From positions 27,098,762 through 27,162,761 of the forward strand of contig OX453279.1 of NCBI GenBank assembly GCA_949710005.1: 64,000 nt of DNA, read 5' to 3'. Position numbers and translations under genes: made by a program. The DNA is from Ricordea florida. Taxonomy: Eukaryota > Cnidaria > Anthozoa > Corallimorpharia > Ricordeidae. Under the pieces are notes generated by a model that was not told where the DNA came from, made no database searches, and saw only the letters and a program-made list of their open reading frames with translations. Positions 33,753-45,090 of the stretch are shown piece after piece (within the stretch, counting starts at the first letter, position 1; each line of letters begins with the position of its first letter).

Positions 33753-33769
33753 GCTACGACTAAACCCAG

Positions 33770-34230
33770 TTTGGCTTTCTCTTGTTCATCCAGGTTTGGT
33801 TTTCCATTGTTCATCCAGTTTTGGTTATCCATTGCTCATCCAGTTTTAGTTATCCATTGTTCATCCAGTTTGGGTTTTCCATGGCTCATCCAGTTTTTAG
33901 TTATCCATTAATTTTATAATCTAGTTTTTGGTTATCCATTATCATCCAGTTTTGGTTTTCCATTGTTCATCCAAGTTTTCAGTTATCCATAGTTCATCCA
34001 GTTTTGGTTATCCATTGTTCATCCAGTTTTGGTTTCCATTGTTCATCCAGTTTTGGTTATCCATTGTTCATCCCGCTTTGGTTTCCATTGTTCATCCCGC
34101 TTTGGTTATCCATTGTTCATCCAGTTGTGGTTTTCCATTGTTCATCCAGTATTTTAGTTCTCCATTATTCATCCAGCTTTGGTATTTCATTGTCATCCAG
34201 TTTTGGTTTTCCATTGCTCATCCAGTTTAA
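33770..34230. repeat. Minisatellite family 1, 25-bp period
   Basis: About 18 units close to CATCCAGTTTTGGTTATCCA plus TTGTT, with length variants of 24-27 bp. It abuts the Gag fragment at the left and passes directly into family 2 at the right. Confidence 0.9.
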
Positions 34231-35885
34231 CTCAATCCATCAGTAATCCACGTTCACTCAATCAATCCCTCATCCAGCGTTCACTCAATACATCAGTAAT
34301 CCACGTTCACTCAATTCATCCCTCATCCACTTTCACTCAATTCATCCCTCATCCACGTTCACTCAGTCCATCTCTTATCCACGTTCACGCGATCCATCAG
34401 TAATCCACGTTCACTCAATTCATCAGTAATCCACGTTCACTCAATTCATCCCTCATCCACGTTCACTCAATCCATCCCTAATCCATGTTCACTCAGTCCA
34501 TCTCTCATCCCCGTTCACGCAATCCAACAGTAATCCACGTTCACTCAATTCATCAGTAATCCACGTTCACTCAATTCATCACTCATCCACGTTCACTCAG
34601 TCCATCTCTCATCCACATTCACGCAATCCATCAGCAATCCACGTTCACTCAATTCATCGGTAATCCACGTTTACTCAATTCATCCCTCATCCACGTTCAC
34701 TCAGTCCATCTCTTATCCACGTTCACGCAATCCATCACTAATCCACGTTCACTCAATTCATCAGTAATCCACGTTCACTCAATTCATCAGTAATCCACGT
34801 TCACTCAATTCATCCCTCATCAACGTTCACTCAGTCCATCTCTCATCCACGTTCACGCAACCATCAGTAATCCATGTTCACGCAATCCATCAGTAATCCA
34901 CGTTCACTCAATTCATCAGTAATCCACGTTCACTCAATTCATCCCTCATCCACTTTCACTCAGTCCATCTCTCATCTACGTTCACGCAACCCATCAGTAA
35001 TCCACGTTCACTCAATTCATCAGTAATCCACGTTCCCTCAATTCATCCCTCATCCACGTTCACTCAGTCCATCTCTTATCCACGTTCATGCAATCCATCA
35101 GTAATCCCCGTTCACTCAATTCATCAGTAATCCACGCTCACGCAATTCATCAGTAATCCACGTTCACTCAATTCATCAGTAATCCACGTTCACTCAATTC
35201 ATCCCTCATCCACGTTCACTCAATCCATCCCTCATCCACGTTCACTCAGTCCATCTCTCATCCACGTTCACGCAACCATCAGTAATCCACGTTCACGCAA
35301 TTCATCAGTAATCCACGTTCACTCAATTCATCAGTAATCCACGTTCACTCAATTCATCCTTCATCCACGTTCACTCAGTCCATCTCTTATCCACGTTCAC
35401 GCAATCCATCAGTAATTCACGTTCACTCAATTCATCAGTAATCAACGTTCACTCAATTCATCAGTAATCCACGTTCACTCAATTCATCCCTCATCCACGT
35501 TCATTCAATTCATCCCTCATCGACGTTCACTCAATTCATCCCTCATCCATGTTCATTCAATTCATCCCTCATCGACGTTCACTTAATCCATCAGTAATCC
35601 ACGTTCAATCAATCCATTCCTCATCCACGTTCACTCAATTGATTCCTCATCCACGTTCACTCAACCATCAGTAATCCACGTTCACTCCATTCATTCCTCA
35701 TCCACTTTCACTCAATTGATTCCTTATCCACGTTCACTTAATCCATCAGTAATCCACGTTCACTCAACCATCAGTAATCCACGTTCACTCAACCATCAAT
35801 AATCCACGTTCACTCAATCCCATCAGTAATCCACGTTCACTCAACCATCAGTAATCCACGTTCACTCAATCCATTAGTAATCACG
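34231..35885. repeat. Minisatellite family 2, 26-bp period with higher-order pattern
   Basis: About 63 units close to ATCCACGTTCACTCAATTCA plus TCAGTA. Unit variants alternate in a repeating order (TCAGTA one to three times, TCCCTC, TCTCTC/TCTCTT with CGCAATCCA), a higher-order structure of roughly 100-130 bp that decays after about 35500. Confidence 0.92.
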
Positions 35886-36069
35886 TAAAATTAAGAACGG
35901 AGATGATAGATCTTAGAGTTTATCAAATTTTAATAACCTAGATTGTTCTGGAGCAGGGAAGGTCACGCTCTACTGTGCCTTCACTTTCCTTTTTGTATAA
36001 AAAGTGAGTGTTGATTTTAATATTATATGGAGGAAACAAAACAATGTACTAGGTGCTTTAAATATAAAG

Positions 36070-36849
36070 AAGCGCGAAGCGCGCGGGCCATAAATCGACG
36101 GGAAAAAAACGAGGATCCGTATTTTACAGTACGGACCGAGAAGACGAGGTTAATAAGATATTTATTATATCTCTGGAGTCATTTTGGCGACCAAAACAAA
36201 CTTTAGCGGGCCGTACAGTGAAGTACGGCCCGCTAAATTGACCAATCACAGCGCGCGTACTAACTGAAAGATATAATAAATATATATAAATATATATACA
36301 TATATAAAAACTCTCGGCTCGATTTCCTCGGGCTTGCGAGCCATGTGGTCTGACCGAAGGCGACACGATTAGTAACCTCGCTACGCTCGGCCTTCGGCCT
36401 CGCTTCGCGAGGAATGAATTTTAACCATGTTTTTCGCTTTGTCAACCTGTGTTATCTCCACTGGATAAATATTTCTGTCCGTAGCTTTTAACTTCTTGTA
36501 ATTCTTGGGTTTAGCTTCTGCGAATTCGTCAATAAATCTCTTCGGAATCTTGCATTCCCGTTTCGCTCTATTGGCCGCCATTTTGAACATTGGCGTTCTT
36601 TGCATATTTAACTCCATGCGCATGTCAGGTGGGTAATATGGAGGCTTGGAGGCTCTCAGTTAGTATGCGGGCTGTGATTGGTCAATTTAGCGGGCCGTAC
36701 TTCACTGTACGGCCCGCTAAAGTTTGTTTTGGTCGCCAAAATGACTCCAGAGATATAATAAATATCTTATTAACCTCGTTTTCTCGGTCCGTACTGTAAA
36801 ATACGGATCCTCGTTTTTTCCCGTCGATTTATGGCCCAAGCGCGAAGCG
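36070..36849. repeat. Inverted repeat, about 200-bp arms, enclosing a Tudor-knot-like exon
   Basis: Left arm about 36070-36269 and right arm about 36651-36849 are near-perfect inverses: GCGCGAAGCGCGCGGGCCAT..., GAGGTTAATAAGATATTTAT..., TAGCGGGCCGTAC.... Each arm also contains a short internal hairpin (TTTAGCGGGCCGTAC / inverse). A partial third copy of the outer end follows at 36850-36920. Confidence 0.88.
36413..36581 (-). pseudogene. Tudor-knot/chromo-barrel-like first exon fragment
   Basis: Starts at an ATG in AAAATGGCGGCC and encodes MAANRAKRECKIPKRFIDEF, then NIYPVEITQVDKAKNMVKIH. The last part is the first half of a Tudor-knot-like domain (usually followed by Y-x-G-[YW]-x-x-x-x-D-E-W). 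The frame runs into a palindrome (36383-36412) with no donor. The expected second half, GYTEKFDEWRP, is encoded at about 39250 on the opposite strand. Confidence 0.55.
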
Positions 36850-36969
36850 CGCGGGCCATAAATCGACGGGAAAAAACTCGGTCCGTATTTTACAGTACGG
36901 ACCTCGAACTCGATTAATAAGAGGTATATATCTATATTTTAGAGGGTCCGTTCGCAGGCCAGGTTACCT

Positions 36970-37621
36970 GGCAACATTAATTCATGTGAATTTCCGCCAT
37001 TTCGAATTCCGTGAATGATGTTTTGAAAATAATGTGAATTTTGTGGAAACCGATTTCACTAATCCTGGAAATACATCTCAGCAAGAAGATCTCCGAGATA
37101 TACAAGAAAGAGCGGCGAGGGATCGTCGTCGAGTAGGTTTGAATGCCGCAAAAATCAGCGCACGGGAAGCGGCGACTCAAAGAATAGATTAAGAAACTAC
37201 GGTAGGGACGATAACAAGAGACATCGCAGCAGAGACAACAACTGCTCGCTAAAAAAAGGGAAAGGAAACAGCAAGGAAAAGGACCAGGAAGGCAATCAAG
37301 TTAGATGGGAAATTGAATTTGTTATAGATAGTAACAAAGACTCGTTTTAGCTATACAGGACATGAGAGACTTCGAACGGAAACCGAGTAGGAACGACTTC
37401 AAAAAGATTGAGATACACTGGAAAATATGATAATCACAAGGCAAACTGCAATGAAAACAGAATTTAAGGAAATTCATGGCAACAGCGTACAGACAGAATC
37501 AGAGGACGAACGAGGAAACACATTACCATATCGTCGTGAAAAAAGTTTCAGGAAAGGGGAAACAGAAACAAACCGCAAAGAAATGAAAGATGACAGTCAC
37601 GTAGTATTTATACTGCAATGA
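36970..37621 (+). other. Hydrophilic ORF remnants, no family recognised
   Basis: A plus-strand frame reads QQEDLRDIQERAARDRRRVG then AREAATQRID and a stop (37044-37193), followed by other Lys/Glu/Arg-rich open stretches to 37621. Composition suggests former coding sequence of a charged protein, but there is no domain I can name and no clear splice structure. Confidence 0.25.
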
Positions 37622-39200
37622 GAATGCAAGTAGGTATTTTTCGTAGTGAAACGATTGCCTTCCATTTTAAAGCAATTCCCAATACAGAGGTTGCAGTTGT
37701 GATAGCAATTATTTGTAATTATGTGATCTGATATCATTGCAACTGTGAAAATATATTGTAGATTTGTTTGATGTAGCAGTTATGTTCAGCATTTTCAACA
37801 GAAAACATACCAAACAATAAGTGACTGGTTCTGCAGTATTATCAGTGACCAGTGCAAGTATTTGTAAATAAAGCAGTTGTCATTACTGACTTCTGAGTAG
37901 TATTTCTCTTTGCTATATTTCTTTCCTACATATATGTATTAAGTAATTACAAGGTTTCGTGGGGACAAACAATTTCCAGACCCATTTCAAAATGGGTTTT
38001 TACCTTTGAGTTCCAAGTATCCCTGGGAGTTACTCTCTTAGCCCCCACCCTTTTCCCATAAATCAAAAGTTAATTTAAGCCCTACATTGCAAAATTAGGC
38101 GTAAAATCTTAACCTTTTTCCTTAATGCTGTTTAAATCATTTATATGATGTCAAATACAAATATTTAATGACAACCACAATACACAGTTGACCTTTTTCA
38201 TTAGAAAAACTCTATAAGGGAGAAACTAAAGTTTGTAATGCTAAAATTTTTAGTGATCTTTCTTATATATTCATTGCAAGGGTGCTGTATGTAATAACAA
38301 GTCTTTGAAGTTTCCTAAATGGCCTATACTTTCAATCATGATTTTCCACACTAACTGTATGGACAAATAACTGCACTAGCCTGATTGCCACAGGTAAGTA
38401 AAGAAAATGGTAAGGAAAAAAATTCTTCAAGGTCAGTGAAAAGTCTGGGAATTTCAAATCAAGTAAGGGAAAGTTTAAGTCTTTGAGAGAATTAAGAGAA
38501 AAGTGAAATTTAAGACTACTAATTTATTTCTTGCCAATTTAGTGATGGTTTGGTGTGGTCAAGAATGTGACATGAAATGTGTTGGATTGGTAGAATTAAA
38601 TGGCTGATTACCTGATTTTGGGTATCCAAGAAAATCAATCCTTCTTCCATAACCTTGTTATTTTAAGAAACTATAAATCCATGTACACTGTATGTGAATT
38701 TCGGAAAGCATATTAAATAAATGGGTGGAGAGGTAGGCTGTTTGGAGAGGTTGGAGGCCATTACCAGGACTAATTTTCGACTTTTCTTATTTAGTTGGAA
38801 AGGGAAATTTTACATTTGTCAGGGAAATGTAAGGGAATTTCAAGATCCTGTGGCTGTGCAACCATGACTTGATTATAAGTCTAAAAGAATAAATGGTATT
38901 TTTCATAGTTGACTAATTTTTACCACCTCTGATACAAACCCTATTCAGAATAAAACTGTATTGCTTGTAGTAGCAGAGGAACCTTTTCTCAGAATAGGAC
39001 ATACACCCCCACCCCGTAACAGTATATTATGTTTAACATAAAAAATAACAATACCAGAAATTATAATAATAATAATCATAATGCAAGAATAATAATAATC
39101 ATAATAAAAACAAGAAATGAGAAAATACAAAAAGTGATAATAATTTAGTAACCGAAGTAAATACATAAATTGGGGTCTTATCCCTCATGAAAAACTATTA
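37622..39200. other. No recognisable gene
   Basis: AT-rich sequence with simple repeats (an ATAATAATAATC-type run near 39061-39110). No exon with family similarity and no long inverted repeat noticed. Confidence 0.5.
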
Positions 39201-39239
39201 CGAGTTCTTTAAAAACTAGCTTCGCGAGGTTTTGCGGGA

Positions 39240-39805
39240 GTCGTATTTCTAGTTTTAAAGGGTACACTGAGAAATTTGACGAATGGAGGCCGTGCGATGA
39301 AAATAACTTGCCAGTGATACGATTAGAACCGATGTCACAACCAACCGATGATTCCCTTAGCGATCGCCTGCAAGCTTTTTGTGAACGTGTTTACAGGGAA
39401 ATCAAGCGAAAGTTGTACTCAGGGCGCAAAGAGGATCCCCAAGTACGTATTGAAATTCAAGTCGATGTTGACGTTTTCAATGCAAGTCTCGGAAGGATTA
39501 CGTCCAAACGATATCAGAGGAATAAACTCATATATGAGGTTCTTTCTAATGAAACTTTGGATTTTTTTATCGGCACAAAGTGGAATGAGCGGATCATGAA
39601 TGAAAACGGTGATTTTGCCTATGTTGTACCAGGAACTTTGAGATTTTGGCTGACAAAAAGAAACCCCATCGTGGAATTTAAATTAATTGGCGATAAATAT
39701 GTGAGATCTGAAATCGAAGACGGGCATCAAGTCGTTATTACATTTGTCCGTGGAGATGGCAACAGATGTGGATACAAAGAAAAGGTCCATCATAAATATA
39801 TTTGA
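39240..39805 (+). CDS. Partial gene: Tudor-knot-like second half and long alpha/beta C-terminal region
   Basis: The frame opens after an acceptor-like TTTTAAAG with GYTEKFDEWRPCDENNLPVI and continues about 180 residues to TGA via RLEPMSQPTDDSL, RKEDPQVRIEIQVDVDVFNA, DFAYVVPGTLRFWLTKRNP and VITFVRGDGNR. The first part matches the D-E-W-R half of a Tudor-knot-like domain; the remainder resembles multi-copy uncharacterised cnidarian proteins (recalled, not searched). An internal ATG at 39332 could start translation, but the homology begins upstream, so this is more likely a downstream exon. The matching first half is at 36413-36581 in opposite orientation. Confidence 0.5.
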
Positions 39806-40268: not shown

Positions 40269-42817
40269 TTACTGATTGATTAATTCACATCTTGGCTTCC
40301 ATTTACCATCTATTTTAACAAGATGTGCACAGAAAGTAGGAGCATCACATTTCCTGCATTTTGCAGTACATGTTTTGATGGTATGGCCAGAAGTTGAACA
40401 GTGTCCACAACTGTAGCTTTCCTTCACCCTTTCCATACCAGCTGCTTCCAAAAGCTGTATTCTGTGTTTTTTCAAGAAAAGTTGCCTTAGTGCAGAAACC
40501 CCTCTATGGTTTGCTGATCTAAAGTAGTCCTTCGATACAGTGTCATTGTACTTCTCCATACCTTGCTGGGTGTAATAAGCTAAATTTTGGTAAAGCTTTA
40601 AAAATTCAGGCACATGAGCATACAAAGCATGCATATAAGGTGTCACATCTTTTGCTTGGTATAGGTCAAGGAATTTTTGAAACCAGTTTTTTATCTTGTC
40701 TTCAAGGCTAGAGATAGCATCATCTGTTGTGTAGTCTAGTTTAAGATCACCTATAATATCCATGAAACTACTCCAAAGGGCTTGCAGCTTATCCGTGCCT
40801 TGACATTCTGATAATAGTGAATGAAAATTTATGTGCTGAAAAGCCAAGAGTTTTTCAGGTCCTGTAAGATCTCTGTACTCCAGCTTCTTGGTGTCCCTAT
40901 TGACTTTCCATTCAAAACTAATTCCAAGGTCTTTTACAAATTTTTCATACCCAGCCATGTGTCTATAACTGTTTTGACAAAACCCATTTGAAAAAGTAGA
41001 TACCTTTTCGATGGCATCTTTTCTGCGAAGTTCCCTGATAAGAAGTTCAATTAAATTATCAGATATTCTCAAAAACAAATGTAGTGTATCAATTATTACA
41101 TGGTCAATGGGAATAAAGTTAAATAATGGATTGGTTTTACAATTATATTGTTTAGATTTTGCATGCTTACCTATTTCTTGTGAGTCTCTTGCCCCAAGGC
41201 ATTTGTCAGTTAAAGACCACTTTTTGCTGATGTCAAATCTCTCATGTCTTGGGCACTTACACCAAATACAGGCAAAATTTTGATTTGCAGCTCCTAGACC
41301 ACAGACACAGGCTAGAAACTTCCAGTCTCCTCCCAAAAAATACTCGATGCTATACTTATGATTATTTACAGTTATCTCTTTTAAATTTGACATTTCATTG
41401 TTTAGATCAGCAAGGCTTTCTTTAAGATTGCAATAGTTCTCTGTTGTCTTGATTATTGCTAAAACATAGTTCCCTTTTTCGTTCATTGCTGCATCCTTTT
41501 CATTCAAGATTGTATATGTGACATTTTCAAGTTTAAGTCTTTTTCCAATGTTAGTACCATCACCACTGATCTTTACTTTAATAGTAGTAGCCTTGTCCAA
41601 GACTCCATTTTTCTGCAGCCTTTTTATCTGTTCCTCAAGACTCTCCTTGAAAGAAATCTGTATTCCCTCTGCCTCCCCTGGTGTACTTTTCAGATTCCAA
41701 TTGGCATTAAGCTTATCTAGGTGTTTGCACATTTTATATTTTGTGGGCATGTCTTTACACTTCATGGCCAACTCGTGCCAGGCTTCGTTAGATATATTGA
41801 ATTTGTCCTTTAAGTAAACCCACATATTGATGTCATCAATATCATTGTCATTCAGTTCTTTTAGATCAGTTTCCCGTAGTTTCAATTCTCCATCTTCTAC
41901 CAATGACATGGTTTCGTACTGCTGAGTCTCATTATTAAATACTTCAACCCTGGTGGCAACAAAATCGTACAGGCCTAAAAATGACAGTGCTGAAAGGCAG
42001 TCTTCTTTAAATCCTCGCCTTATCCTTGCCTGGTGCTGTTTGGTGTAATCAGTGAATTTTTTACTTTTGTTTGGACCTCTTTGTCCCCTTTTTTGCATAC
42101 TTGCTGCTTTTTTCACTAATCTCCTGAATTTTTCTTTGTACTGTTTTTTTCTGTTTTCTGAATCCCTAATGACATCTTCAAGCTTCTGCTCAATTTTTAG
42201 TCTCTTTGCCTGCTCTGCAGCTAAATCCAGTTCAGCTTTCCTTTTCTGCCCACGGAGCTGTTGGTTTTCCTCAATCAATGAACTATTTTGAAGCTCATGA
42301 TAGAAAATTTTGAAAGAGTAGTTTTTAGCCTTCCACGAGTCAACAAGCTTACTTATACTCTTCCCCCCACCTCGTGAACATTTCTTGAATGCTGAATGGA
42401 GGAGAGAAATCTTTTTCCTGAAGACATTGATAATTCTGGAATTTATGACAACTCCGCGAATCCCAGATTCCCTCAAGATTTTTTCCACTATTCCTGCAAT
42501 TACAGAATCGGCACTTTCGTCGTTGGGTTCCTCAACAGGCTTCTTCGACAGGGAATATATGAGATAGCTGATTAAAAAATGAAAAAGAAATAAAAAAAAT
42601 AAAAAATCGTTTTGATGAAAAAAACAAAACATTAACAAAATGAAACGTGTTTGAATTAACGCATTTTTACTTACTTGTTTATTTCGTAAGTAAACCAAGG
42701 CAATTGATCCCCTTTTGGACCACTTGTTTCCTCGCCAAAATCGTTTTGTGCATCTACCGCCACCGCGAAAAGAACCAGCGAGGACAAAATCACCAGCGCG
42801 TAAACTTCGAATCCCAT
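40269..42817 (-). CDS. RAG1/Transib-type DDE transposase-like protein, two exons, 813 aa
   Basis: Exon 1 42675-42817, exon 2 40269-42567; the intron is GTAAGT...ATCAG and phase-compatible. Residues 1-23 look like a signal peptide, then a coiled-coil Lys/Glu region (about 145-215). The catalytic core follows: D384 (KISGDGTNIG), D462 (FLGGDWKF), zinc cysteines C481 and C484 (FACIWC), histidines H694 and H699 (MHALYAHVPEF), E719 (GMEKYN). In mouse RAG1 the second Asp is 19 and 22 residues before C727/C730, H937 and H942 are five apart in HxxxxHVPE, and E962 is 20 after H942; all these spacings are identical here, and C-to-H is 210 against 207. The tail CGHCSTSGHTIKTC is CX2CX3GHX4C, the motif of RAG1-like transposases. 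Likely activity: DNA cleavage and strand transfer. No RAG2-like kelch gene or paired ends were found. The coding exon is fully open, so it may be recent or domesticated. Confidence 0.78.
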
Positions 42818-42848
42818 TTCCCGAACCCAAACAATATTCAAACCTCAT

Positions 42849-43298
42849 CAGGGACGGCGGAGCCGGGGGGGCTGGGGGGGGCTTTAGCCCCCCCACTTTT
42901 GAGGAGGATGACATTTTATTTTTTTTAAGCTACAACTTTATACAAACCTCGTCGGAAACTTTTCGCGTTTACGTATTTTTAACATTTTCTCAGTGTGTGC
43001 TTCCTTCCCAGAGACGGGAAGCTTGTGTCAAAAAAACCGCAGGTTAGCGTTGGAGACGGGAAGGCTGAGAAATAACCTCCAAAATATTGCTGTAAGCATT
43101 AAAAGTACCTTTCATTTTACGCTTTATCCAGGCTAATTATTTCAAGAAGTATGTCGCGGAGAATGTTGGAAATACGATTTCCGAGACTCTAGATTTCAAA
43201 ATTTTCTGGGGGACGATGCCCCCAGACCCCCTTACCAACTCGCGCCTCCGGCGCTCGTTTCCAGCCCCCCCACTTCAAAATACGCTTCGCCGTCCCTG
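42849..43298. mobile_element. hAT5-like MITE, copy 1, 5-bp TSD CTCAT
   Basis: Ends CAGGGACGGCG and CGCCGTCCCTG with CTCAT on both sides (42844-42848, 43299-43303). 450 bp, non-coding, G/C homopolymer runs near both ends. Inserted 31 bp upstream of the start codon of the RAG1-like gene. A 5-bp duplication with CAGGG ends fits the hAT5 group (family knowledge). Confidence 0.85.
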
Positions 43299-43303
43299 CT
43301 CAT

Positions 43304-45090
43304 GTATTATACATCAAATTGCGCCAAATTTATTCCTCTTTTCGTATTTCGCGGTAATAACCCGTTTTGTGCATGCGCCTTAGAGTTCTAGCCCCAGACT
43401 GTACGGCCGGTGCTTGCATGTGGGATGAACGTCTCTTCGATATGTCTTAAGCGCTAACCAAAAGTCTGGAAAACCCGAACGAAATATTTTAATGATTGCC
43501 TTCAGATGCAGTGATGTAAAAAGCTTATACATGTTAGTTTTATAAACTGAAGGTAAGAAAGATAGCAATTCAAATGGAATACACGAAAAAGAAGAAAATG
43601 TTCGAAAATTAGCGTGTTTTTGACTGACCTCAGACTGCGTGACATGTCACGAAAATCTGTAGAGGCAGATGTTAAGCGTAAGTTTGATATGTCCTGTCGC
43701 CATCGTGGTTTAGGTTTCTCCTGACACCATGTAACGTTTTATGTCTTTCGTTAAAAGTAGAATATGGAGAGAGACGCGAACGATAGAAAACTCCGGTTTT
43801 TAATGTCGGCTTGTCTTCTCAGAATTACAGGGAATCTCTAAAGTGTAATCGTAATCACGCGATATGCGTGGAGTAATGAAAGGGGTCAATTATATTATTA
43901 ATTAAAGTGTATTGACATAACGCAAGTTATTGTCATAGCAACTTTCACGATGGGGTATCGGTAAAAACTTCTCACTGGAATGCCGTATAGTTTTCCATAA
44001 TGATAATGATAAGAATTTATATAGCGCTAAAACTATAAACAATATTCAGAAGCGCTTTACATAAGTTGAGGTTCTATACTAATTAAAACAAACTTTAGAA
44101 CTATTGAATATGCATGGTTAATGAGGCGGAAGTATACAGTTATAAAGAAATCTAGCAAAATCGATCACTATTTTGAGCTTATTTTGAAACAGATGGTTAC
44201 AAATTCTCAATAATTTAGTCATATCTTCTTTTGACATTTACCGACTTTTTTAAGACTGCAAACACCGCTTAACTTTCTTTCGTTTTTGACCCTAGTTCTG
44301 TTCATTAAACCCGATGGCTCTTGTAAACTTCGTCAACATATTTATGAGTCGGATGTGCGTACAGTACAAAACTTGTCTCATCGATCGTTGACACATCGGG
44401 GTCCAACAGCTTCCAACACAACGGGAAGAGTCTTACCATTTTAATAAAGCTATTGTTATCTAATGCTAGTCAAACAACCCGTAATTCATTCACGGCGTCA
44501 TTAATTAATTTGCGACGAATATAGTGTAGCGTAAACGTGTACAAATGAAGCACTAACCTTATTAAATACTTTCCTTAGTTGCGTAGGATCGGCCGGTCTG
44601 ACGGAATACTAAATTTCACAAAAAGAAATCGTGTTAATGTACGATTAACAAAGAATGTAAAGCATTCATTTTACCCGAACACCAGATGAACCGGTACGGT
44701 ACGTAACAGCTACACCACACCAAGTGCGACTCTTACGTTTACCAAGAGAGATTCATATTTCGCTTTCGGAAAGACAGACCAAAACCACGATCGAACTCCT
44801 CTTGACCCCTCCATGTTGATAACAAACAAATTCCCTAGTGAATAGGTTCATACTCTAGAAGAGAATTTGTTGGACTAGTTGAGAAAGATTCCAAACTTTT
44901 CCAAACCCTGATGACCATTTTAAACCAAAGGGGGGAGGGCTTCGTTACGATTTTACCGCCTTGAGTTTGCCATTGCCATATTTGGAGAAGATCTCCTTAT
45001 TTAACACTAAACACGTGGAGTTCACATGTTTGCCTTCCGAAGTCTGCCTTCTATTCATATCCTTAGAAATCGAGGACTATTCACGAAGAA
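43304..45090. other. No recognisable gene
   Basis: No exon, domain or long inverted repeat identified on either strand. A short ATAATGATAATGATAAGAATTTATATAGCGC-type stretch near 44000 looks repeat-derived. Confidence 0.45.

Follow-up and report, generated by a model that had tools for sequence, protein, structure and literature searches.

A transposase gene with a RAG1-like core lies on the minus strand of a 64,000-nucleotide stretch of the Ricordea florida genome (contig OX453279.1, positions 27,098,762 to 27,162,761; hereafter the window), next to a second gene, open reading frame 2 (ORF2), in what appears to be one copy of a DNA transposon (Table 1). The transposase frame is open for 886 codons from stop to stop (40269-42929); the reading frame given in a preliminary description of this DNA is real. 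The main exon encodes an N-terminal coiled coil, a RAG1-like core from DDBD to CTD and a C-terminal CX2CX3GHX4C zinc knuckle. Residues are numbered here from YLIY; adding 48 gives the numbers of the preliminary description. The catalytic and zinc-binding residues named there, D336, D414, C433, C436, H646, H651 and E671 (D384, D462, C481, C484, H694, H699 and E719 of its 813-aa numbering), are all found at the claimed spacings: 78 from Asp to Asp, cysteines at +19 and +22, 210 from Cys to His and 20 from His to Glu. The claimed CX2CX3GHX4C tail is likewise present. The spliced product of 813 aa held up in part, since by eye the predicted splice is phase-compatible, but exon 1 is not supported by the relatives in alignment A1 (the window copy and 51 of 114 matches; 52 sequences). 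A hydrophobic stretch resembling a signal peptide is encoded by the predicted exon 1, which is odd in a nuclear enzyme.

Table 1. Features of the transposon copy and of the insertions around it, in window coordinates
Feature	Position	Strand	Remarks
RAG1-core transposase, main exon	40269..42567	-	765 aa from YLIY, plus stop
Predicted intron (GT-AG)	42568-42674	-	phase-compatible between exon 1 and exon 2 (40269-42567)
Predicted exon 1 (ATG 42817)	42675..42817	-	candidate exon; splice phase fits by eye
Left terminal inverted repeat (TIR), CATATCAAACTTA	43679..43691	-	outer end 43691; identical in L009-L013; base 1 changed in a sixth copy (L026)
ORF2, C-terminal three quarters	39253..39805	+	profile positions 55-233, E 2.5e-94; convergent to transposase
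ORF2, N-terminal part, inverted relative to the rest	36411..36659	-	profile positions 2-56 match 36411-36575, E 1.7e-12
Helitron-like insertion in ORF2	36931..39252	+	ends TC...CTAG, between A and T; type read from ends; abundant genome repeat
Foldback-type repeat around inverted ORF2 fragment	36070..36930		no right TIR located for this copy
Separate transposable element (TE), ends CAGGGACGGCG	42849..43298		5-bp target-site duplication (TSD) CTCAT (42844-42848, 43299-43303); missing from L010; positive control for TSDs

The predicted model of the transposase showed a RAG1-like fold from DDBD to CTD. In the fold comparison the best RAG1 chain led P by 14.7 Z units and hAT Hermes by 18.9, and RAG1 and RAG1L were the only transposase-type chains noticed among the PDB matches listed for the family profiles. 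RAG1 emerged with family profiles only; the single-sequence PDB search returned no RAG1 at E<=10. No Transib chain was among the profile-search matches listed (E<=10; E<=1). The profile search and structure prediction that the preliminary description had proposed thus both gave RAG1 as the best match. The DDE triad and the CxxC and HxxxxH zinc ligands are at RAG1 spacing, with the first Asp outside the printed hidden Markov model alignment; the mouse RAG1 positions are those of the preliminary description, and the comparison with the best-scoring RAG1 chains covered parts of each. Identity to vertebrate RAG1 is about 14% over the aligned core. Residues 1-237, examined for the RAG1 N-terminal zinc region and NBD, are mostly helices in the predicted model, are barely covered by the fold-comparison rows and have no Pfam match. 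Scans of viral and prokaryote contigs confirmed no relative.

Conservation was examined in A1 and in a broader alignment, A3 (the window copy, 35 matches and two loci; 38 sequences); a further alignment, A2, comprised 52 of 84 matches. Both Asp and both Cys are present in 52/52 sequences of A1, both His in 49/52 (three gaps) and the catalytic Glu in 48/52 (three gaps, one R). All the named residues are present in 38/38 sequences of A3 except Glu, with 37/38. Judged from these alignments, the conservation of the D/D/C/C/H/H/E residues is far beyond chance. A D-x-x-H pair (493, 496) is likewise invariant in A1 (52/52) and may correspond to H795, named as a RAG1 active-site residue in PMC7204232, one of the papers used for comparison (with PMC9435367, PMC4411706, PMC4482050 and PMC4455052). 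The CX2CX3GHX4C tail was found in the window copy and in 41/52 of A1, yet in only 17/38 of A3. Six of the 38 A3 members match a SAP domain (E<=0.1, best 1.3e-4). A distant family with a frame of 895 codons (L058, 1657-4341) has, by eye, a SAP-like tail where the window's group (group A) has the zinc knuckle, which is perhaps a swap of DNA-binding tails. A few members also match Pfam DUF1280 (2/52 in A1, best E 1.9e-4; 3/38 in A3), and these matches suggest a possible transposase origin for this uncharacterised family.

The gene is multicopy. At least 66 matches to the transposase were found in the 538-Mb genome, a lower bound since 59 of 523 candidates were scored; the preliminary description had asked for such a count. 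Two further full-length copies are 99-100% identical to the window copy, and two more are interrupted. The main pieces of these four (L010-L013) are about 99% identical to the window copy, and they lie at different sites with a common left end. Of the three copies of subfamily B, which is at 61% identity, one contains a stop. A single further copy is at 59%, and the other matches include two distant families with frames of 867 and 895 codons, at 31-33%. Within subfamilies, the main aligned pieces are 98.6-99.9% identical. Element ends were fixed by copy comparison, with three copies fetched each for B, 867 and 895. This gave elements of 3881 bp with TIR CATATCAAAATCA for B, 4745 bp with TIR CATTRCCAGAAATCATGGACA for the 867 family and about 5438 bp with TIR CATGGCCAGAAATCCGTGACAG for the 895 family. 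For group A, both ends are found only in L026, which is internally deleted. The left end of L026 and one B end have a base change at TIR position 1. The TIRs begin with CAT in 4/4 subfamilies, the window's left end included. An inverted-repeat scan of the locus had recognised no pair as element TIRs among the 25 of 130 pairs listed, without a chance control. The CACAGTG-like ends that had been expected around 38-45 kb are missing: CACWRTG-like ends resembling recombination signal sequences were rejected, with 35 such heptamers in the window against 29.9 expected and none between 32.3 and 47.7 kb.

The preliminary description had also expected 5-bp target duplications, which did not materialise. 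No exact TSD beyond 2 bp was seen in any of the nine copies complete from TIR to TIR (0/9). A flank match of 2 bp (L020) was the longest exact one and occurred once, as did a match of 1 bp (E2); the flanks of E1 did not match. One B copy (L016) has flanks that match at 6/7 bases, a near-match missing from the other two B copies. The count leaves out the window copy and L010-L013, whose right TIR is missing or rearranged, as well as L017 (ends not fixed) and L019 (right end not reached). The separate TE in the window showed a perfect 5-bp TSD by the same flank comparison, which served as a control. For one insertion event, that of L020, an empty site was available: three unoccupied paralogs were fetched out of 39 other flank matches, and 3/3 continue through the junction without any change of bases (0 bp). 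Since these paralogs read straight across, nothing was duplicated or lost at this target, TTAG/AGGT. The L020 flank (2-1068) had 1049 candidate genome matches, of which 40 were scored, and the element sits in what we take to be a Polinton-type DNA polymerase gene.

ORF2 is convergent (tail-to-tail) to the transposase in group A, subfamily B and L017, and also in the 867 and 895 families. It encodes about 230 aa, with a histone-reader-type domain and a conserved domain of about 140 aa. The reader domain is MBT/Tudor-like, matching L3MBTL3/1, PHF20, MOF and MRG15; in two families ORF2 has a canonical Pfam Chromo domain (E 1.3e-13 and 1.6e-11). ORF2 of the group A/B/L017 type has 84 database homologs. 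Its identity as a kelch protein of the RAG2L type was rejected, because its domains are Chromo or MBT/Tudor-like and the domain matches listed include no kelch family.

Although the transposase of the window copy is open and the left TIR intact, the copy is probably not autonomous, because its ORF2 is split by the Helitron-like element at profile position 55/56 and no right TIR with the expected form could be located. It could at most supply transposase. This weakens the earlier suggestion of a fully open, possibly active copy. The CTCAT-flanked TE lies about 30 bp upstream of the predicted transposase start. The Helitron-like insertion, common to several copies, was first taken as the right part of the element and proved to be an abundant repeat (40 scored of 1935 candidate genome matches). 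Most of the 22 other flanks listed for it end in TATATA-like tracts, and some adjoin another copy of it. L010, L011 and L012 carry the same insertion and the exact left TIR, but past the end of the Helitron they diverge from the window copy, in L010 only after about 280 more common bases. A comparison of synonymous and non-synonymous change among copies, also proposed earlier, was carried out over 455 and 1840 sites and gave differences from the window copy of 2/2 (L010), 2/3 (L011), 3/4 (L012) and 4/9 (L013); numbers this small allow no firm conclusion on constraint. Elsewhere in the window, two adjoining minisatellites occupy 33766-35886, the larger of which (34230-35886) repeats a 26-bp unit about 64 times, and GC skew reaches -0.58 in the 34-36 kb bin.

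We read the locus, at a probability of roughly 0.8, as one copy of a cut-and-paste DNA transposon with two genes, in which a RAG1-core transposase (DDBD to CTD, with the DDE triad and the CxxC and HxxxxH zinc site) stands tail-to-tail with ORF2. At the level of sequence, the family presents as near-identical multiple copies with matched TIRs, a convergent ORF2, no clear TSD and a seamless insertion at one empty site. Another possible explanation is that the element belongs to another known superfamily, such as Chapaev/EnSpm, P, hAT or Kolobok, and that its C/H zinc motifs are generic ones from a common DDE ancestor. This is improbable given the Z-score gap to P and Hermes and the profile matches to RAG1 and RAG1L alone among the transposase-type chains noticed in the lists. 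These superfamilies make TSDs of 2-8 bp (2-4 bp in Chapaev/EnSpm, which has a Chapaev- or CACTA-type transposase), and none is clear here. No Chapaev/EnSpm, P or hAT Pfam family was among the 25 rows listed of 103 (A1) and 67 (A3); for Chapaev/EnSpm the comparison covered these rows and the flanks, which have no exact TSD beyond 2 bp. Domestication of the window gene as a host gene could account for an open transposase frame beside a split ORF2 and an unfound right TIR, and for the few changes among copies. We consider this highly improbable, since the left end recurs in four further copies at different sites, and synonymous/non-synonymous counts like 2/2 and 2/3 cannot establish constraint. 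The lack of TSDs could instead be secondary or partial, through end-joining capture into breaks, rearranged flanks or decayed TSDs as in L016. The single empty site recovered, the 6/7 match at L016 and the rearranged right ends in group A would fit this explanation, which is still unlikely: the empty site shows no deletion or filler in any of the three paralogs, young subfamilies lack TSDs, the two other B copies included, and the control TE has a perfect one.

A further rival is an ordinary RAGL/ProtoRAG or Transib element whose RAG2L partner and 5-bp TSDs merely went unrecognised. Like RAGL (ProtoRAG, TransibSU), the present family has a RAG1-core transposase, two genes tail-to-tail and short TIRs starting with CA, and the window's group has the CX2CX3GHX4C tail that is reported for invertebrate RAG1L (PMC7204232). 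The TIR CATATCAAACTTA also resembles the protostome RAGL consensus CACTWMCAAACKTYKBB (PMC7204232), with CAAAC shifted by one base. In the same paper, RAGL and Transib are described with mostly 5-bp TSDs and with CAC ends, CAC being called invariant, and Transib has one gene. In contrast, the present TIRs begin with CAT, no 5-bp TSD was seen in 9/9 copies and the empty site has 0 bp. The partner also differs, with Chromo or MBT/Tudor-like domains in place of the kelch RAG2L of RAGL, with or without PHD, and the coiled-coil N-terminus of the transposase may be a further difference from RAGL. Because the CAC ends, 5-bp TSD and RAG2L of RAGL are missing, as are the single gene, CAC ends and TSD of Transib, the family was not filed under either, and we regard this rival as very unlikely and already largely refuted. 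Of the RAG1/Transib-like interpretation in the preliminary description, the RAG1-like core stands and membership of ProtoRAG/RAGL or Transib is not supported. Complete, probably active RAGL has been reported in Fungia corals (PMC9435367), and therefore true RAGL may coexist with the present family in corals. Spy elements (PHIS superfamily) are likewise eukaryotic cut-and-paste elements without TSDs (PMC4482050), but they target AAATTT with a PIF/ISL2EU-type transposase, unlike the target of L020 and the RAG1-type fold. We read the family as a new variant of RAG1-core transposons, set apart from RAGL and Transib by the features tested. Among the papers listed by a literature search, none was seen to describe an element of this kind in its title or abstract; Repbase was outside this search, so absence from print is not established.

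Vertebrate RAG1/RAG2 resembles the present pair in that RAG1 is the best fold and profile match and the ORF2 domain may read histone methylation, as the PHD finger of RAG2 does. The RAG2 PHD finger is a histone-methyl reader that tethers RAG to methylated chromatin. The present family differs in being mobile and multicopy, without RAG2, and in its low core identity. In the mechanism we propose, a transposase dimer would bind the TIRs over about 13-25 bp, the element would be excised by nick-and-hairpin chemistry as in RAG and Transib, and it would be joined to the target with no net stagger. ORF2 would act with the transposase, most likely by tethering the complex to methylated chromatin. We tentatively suggest, at a little under even odds, that this is an undescribed RAG1-core superfamily in which the transposase and a convergent methyl-histone reader form a working complex, a functional counterpart of RAG1-RAG2, with blunt integration and no target duplication.

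In the accepted explanation, V(D)J recombination, in which RAG1 cuts and RAG2 assists and reads H3K4me3, goes back to RAGL transposons. If the superfamily reading is true, the RAG1 active site would be capable of zero-stagger integration, and the pairing of RAG1 with a chromatin reader would have arisen more than once or be ancestral. A RAG1-core transposase accompanied by another reader-like gene in the tail-to-tail arrangement of RAGL, seemingly without TSDs, makes two questions testable: do RAG1-type enzymes recurrently need a partner that reads chromatin, and what sets the 5-bp stagger of RAG and Transib? The near-identical copies suggest recent mobility and, therefore, an assayable system may exist.
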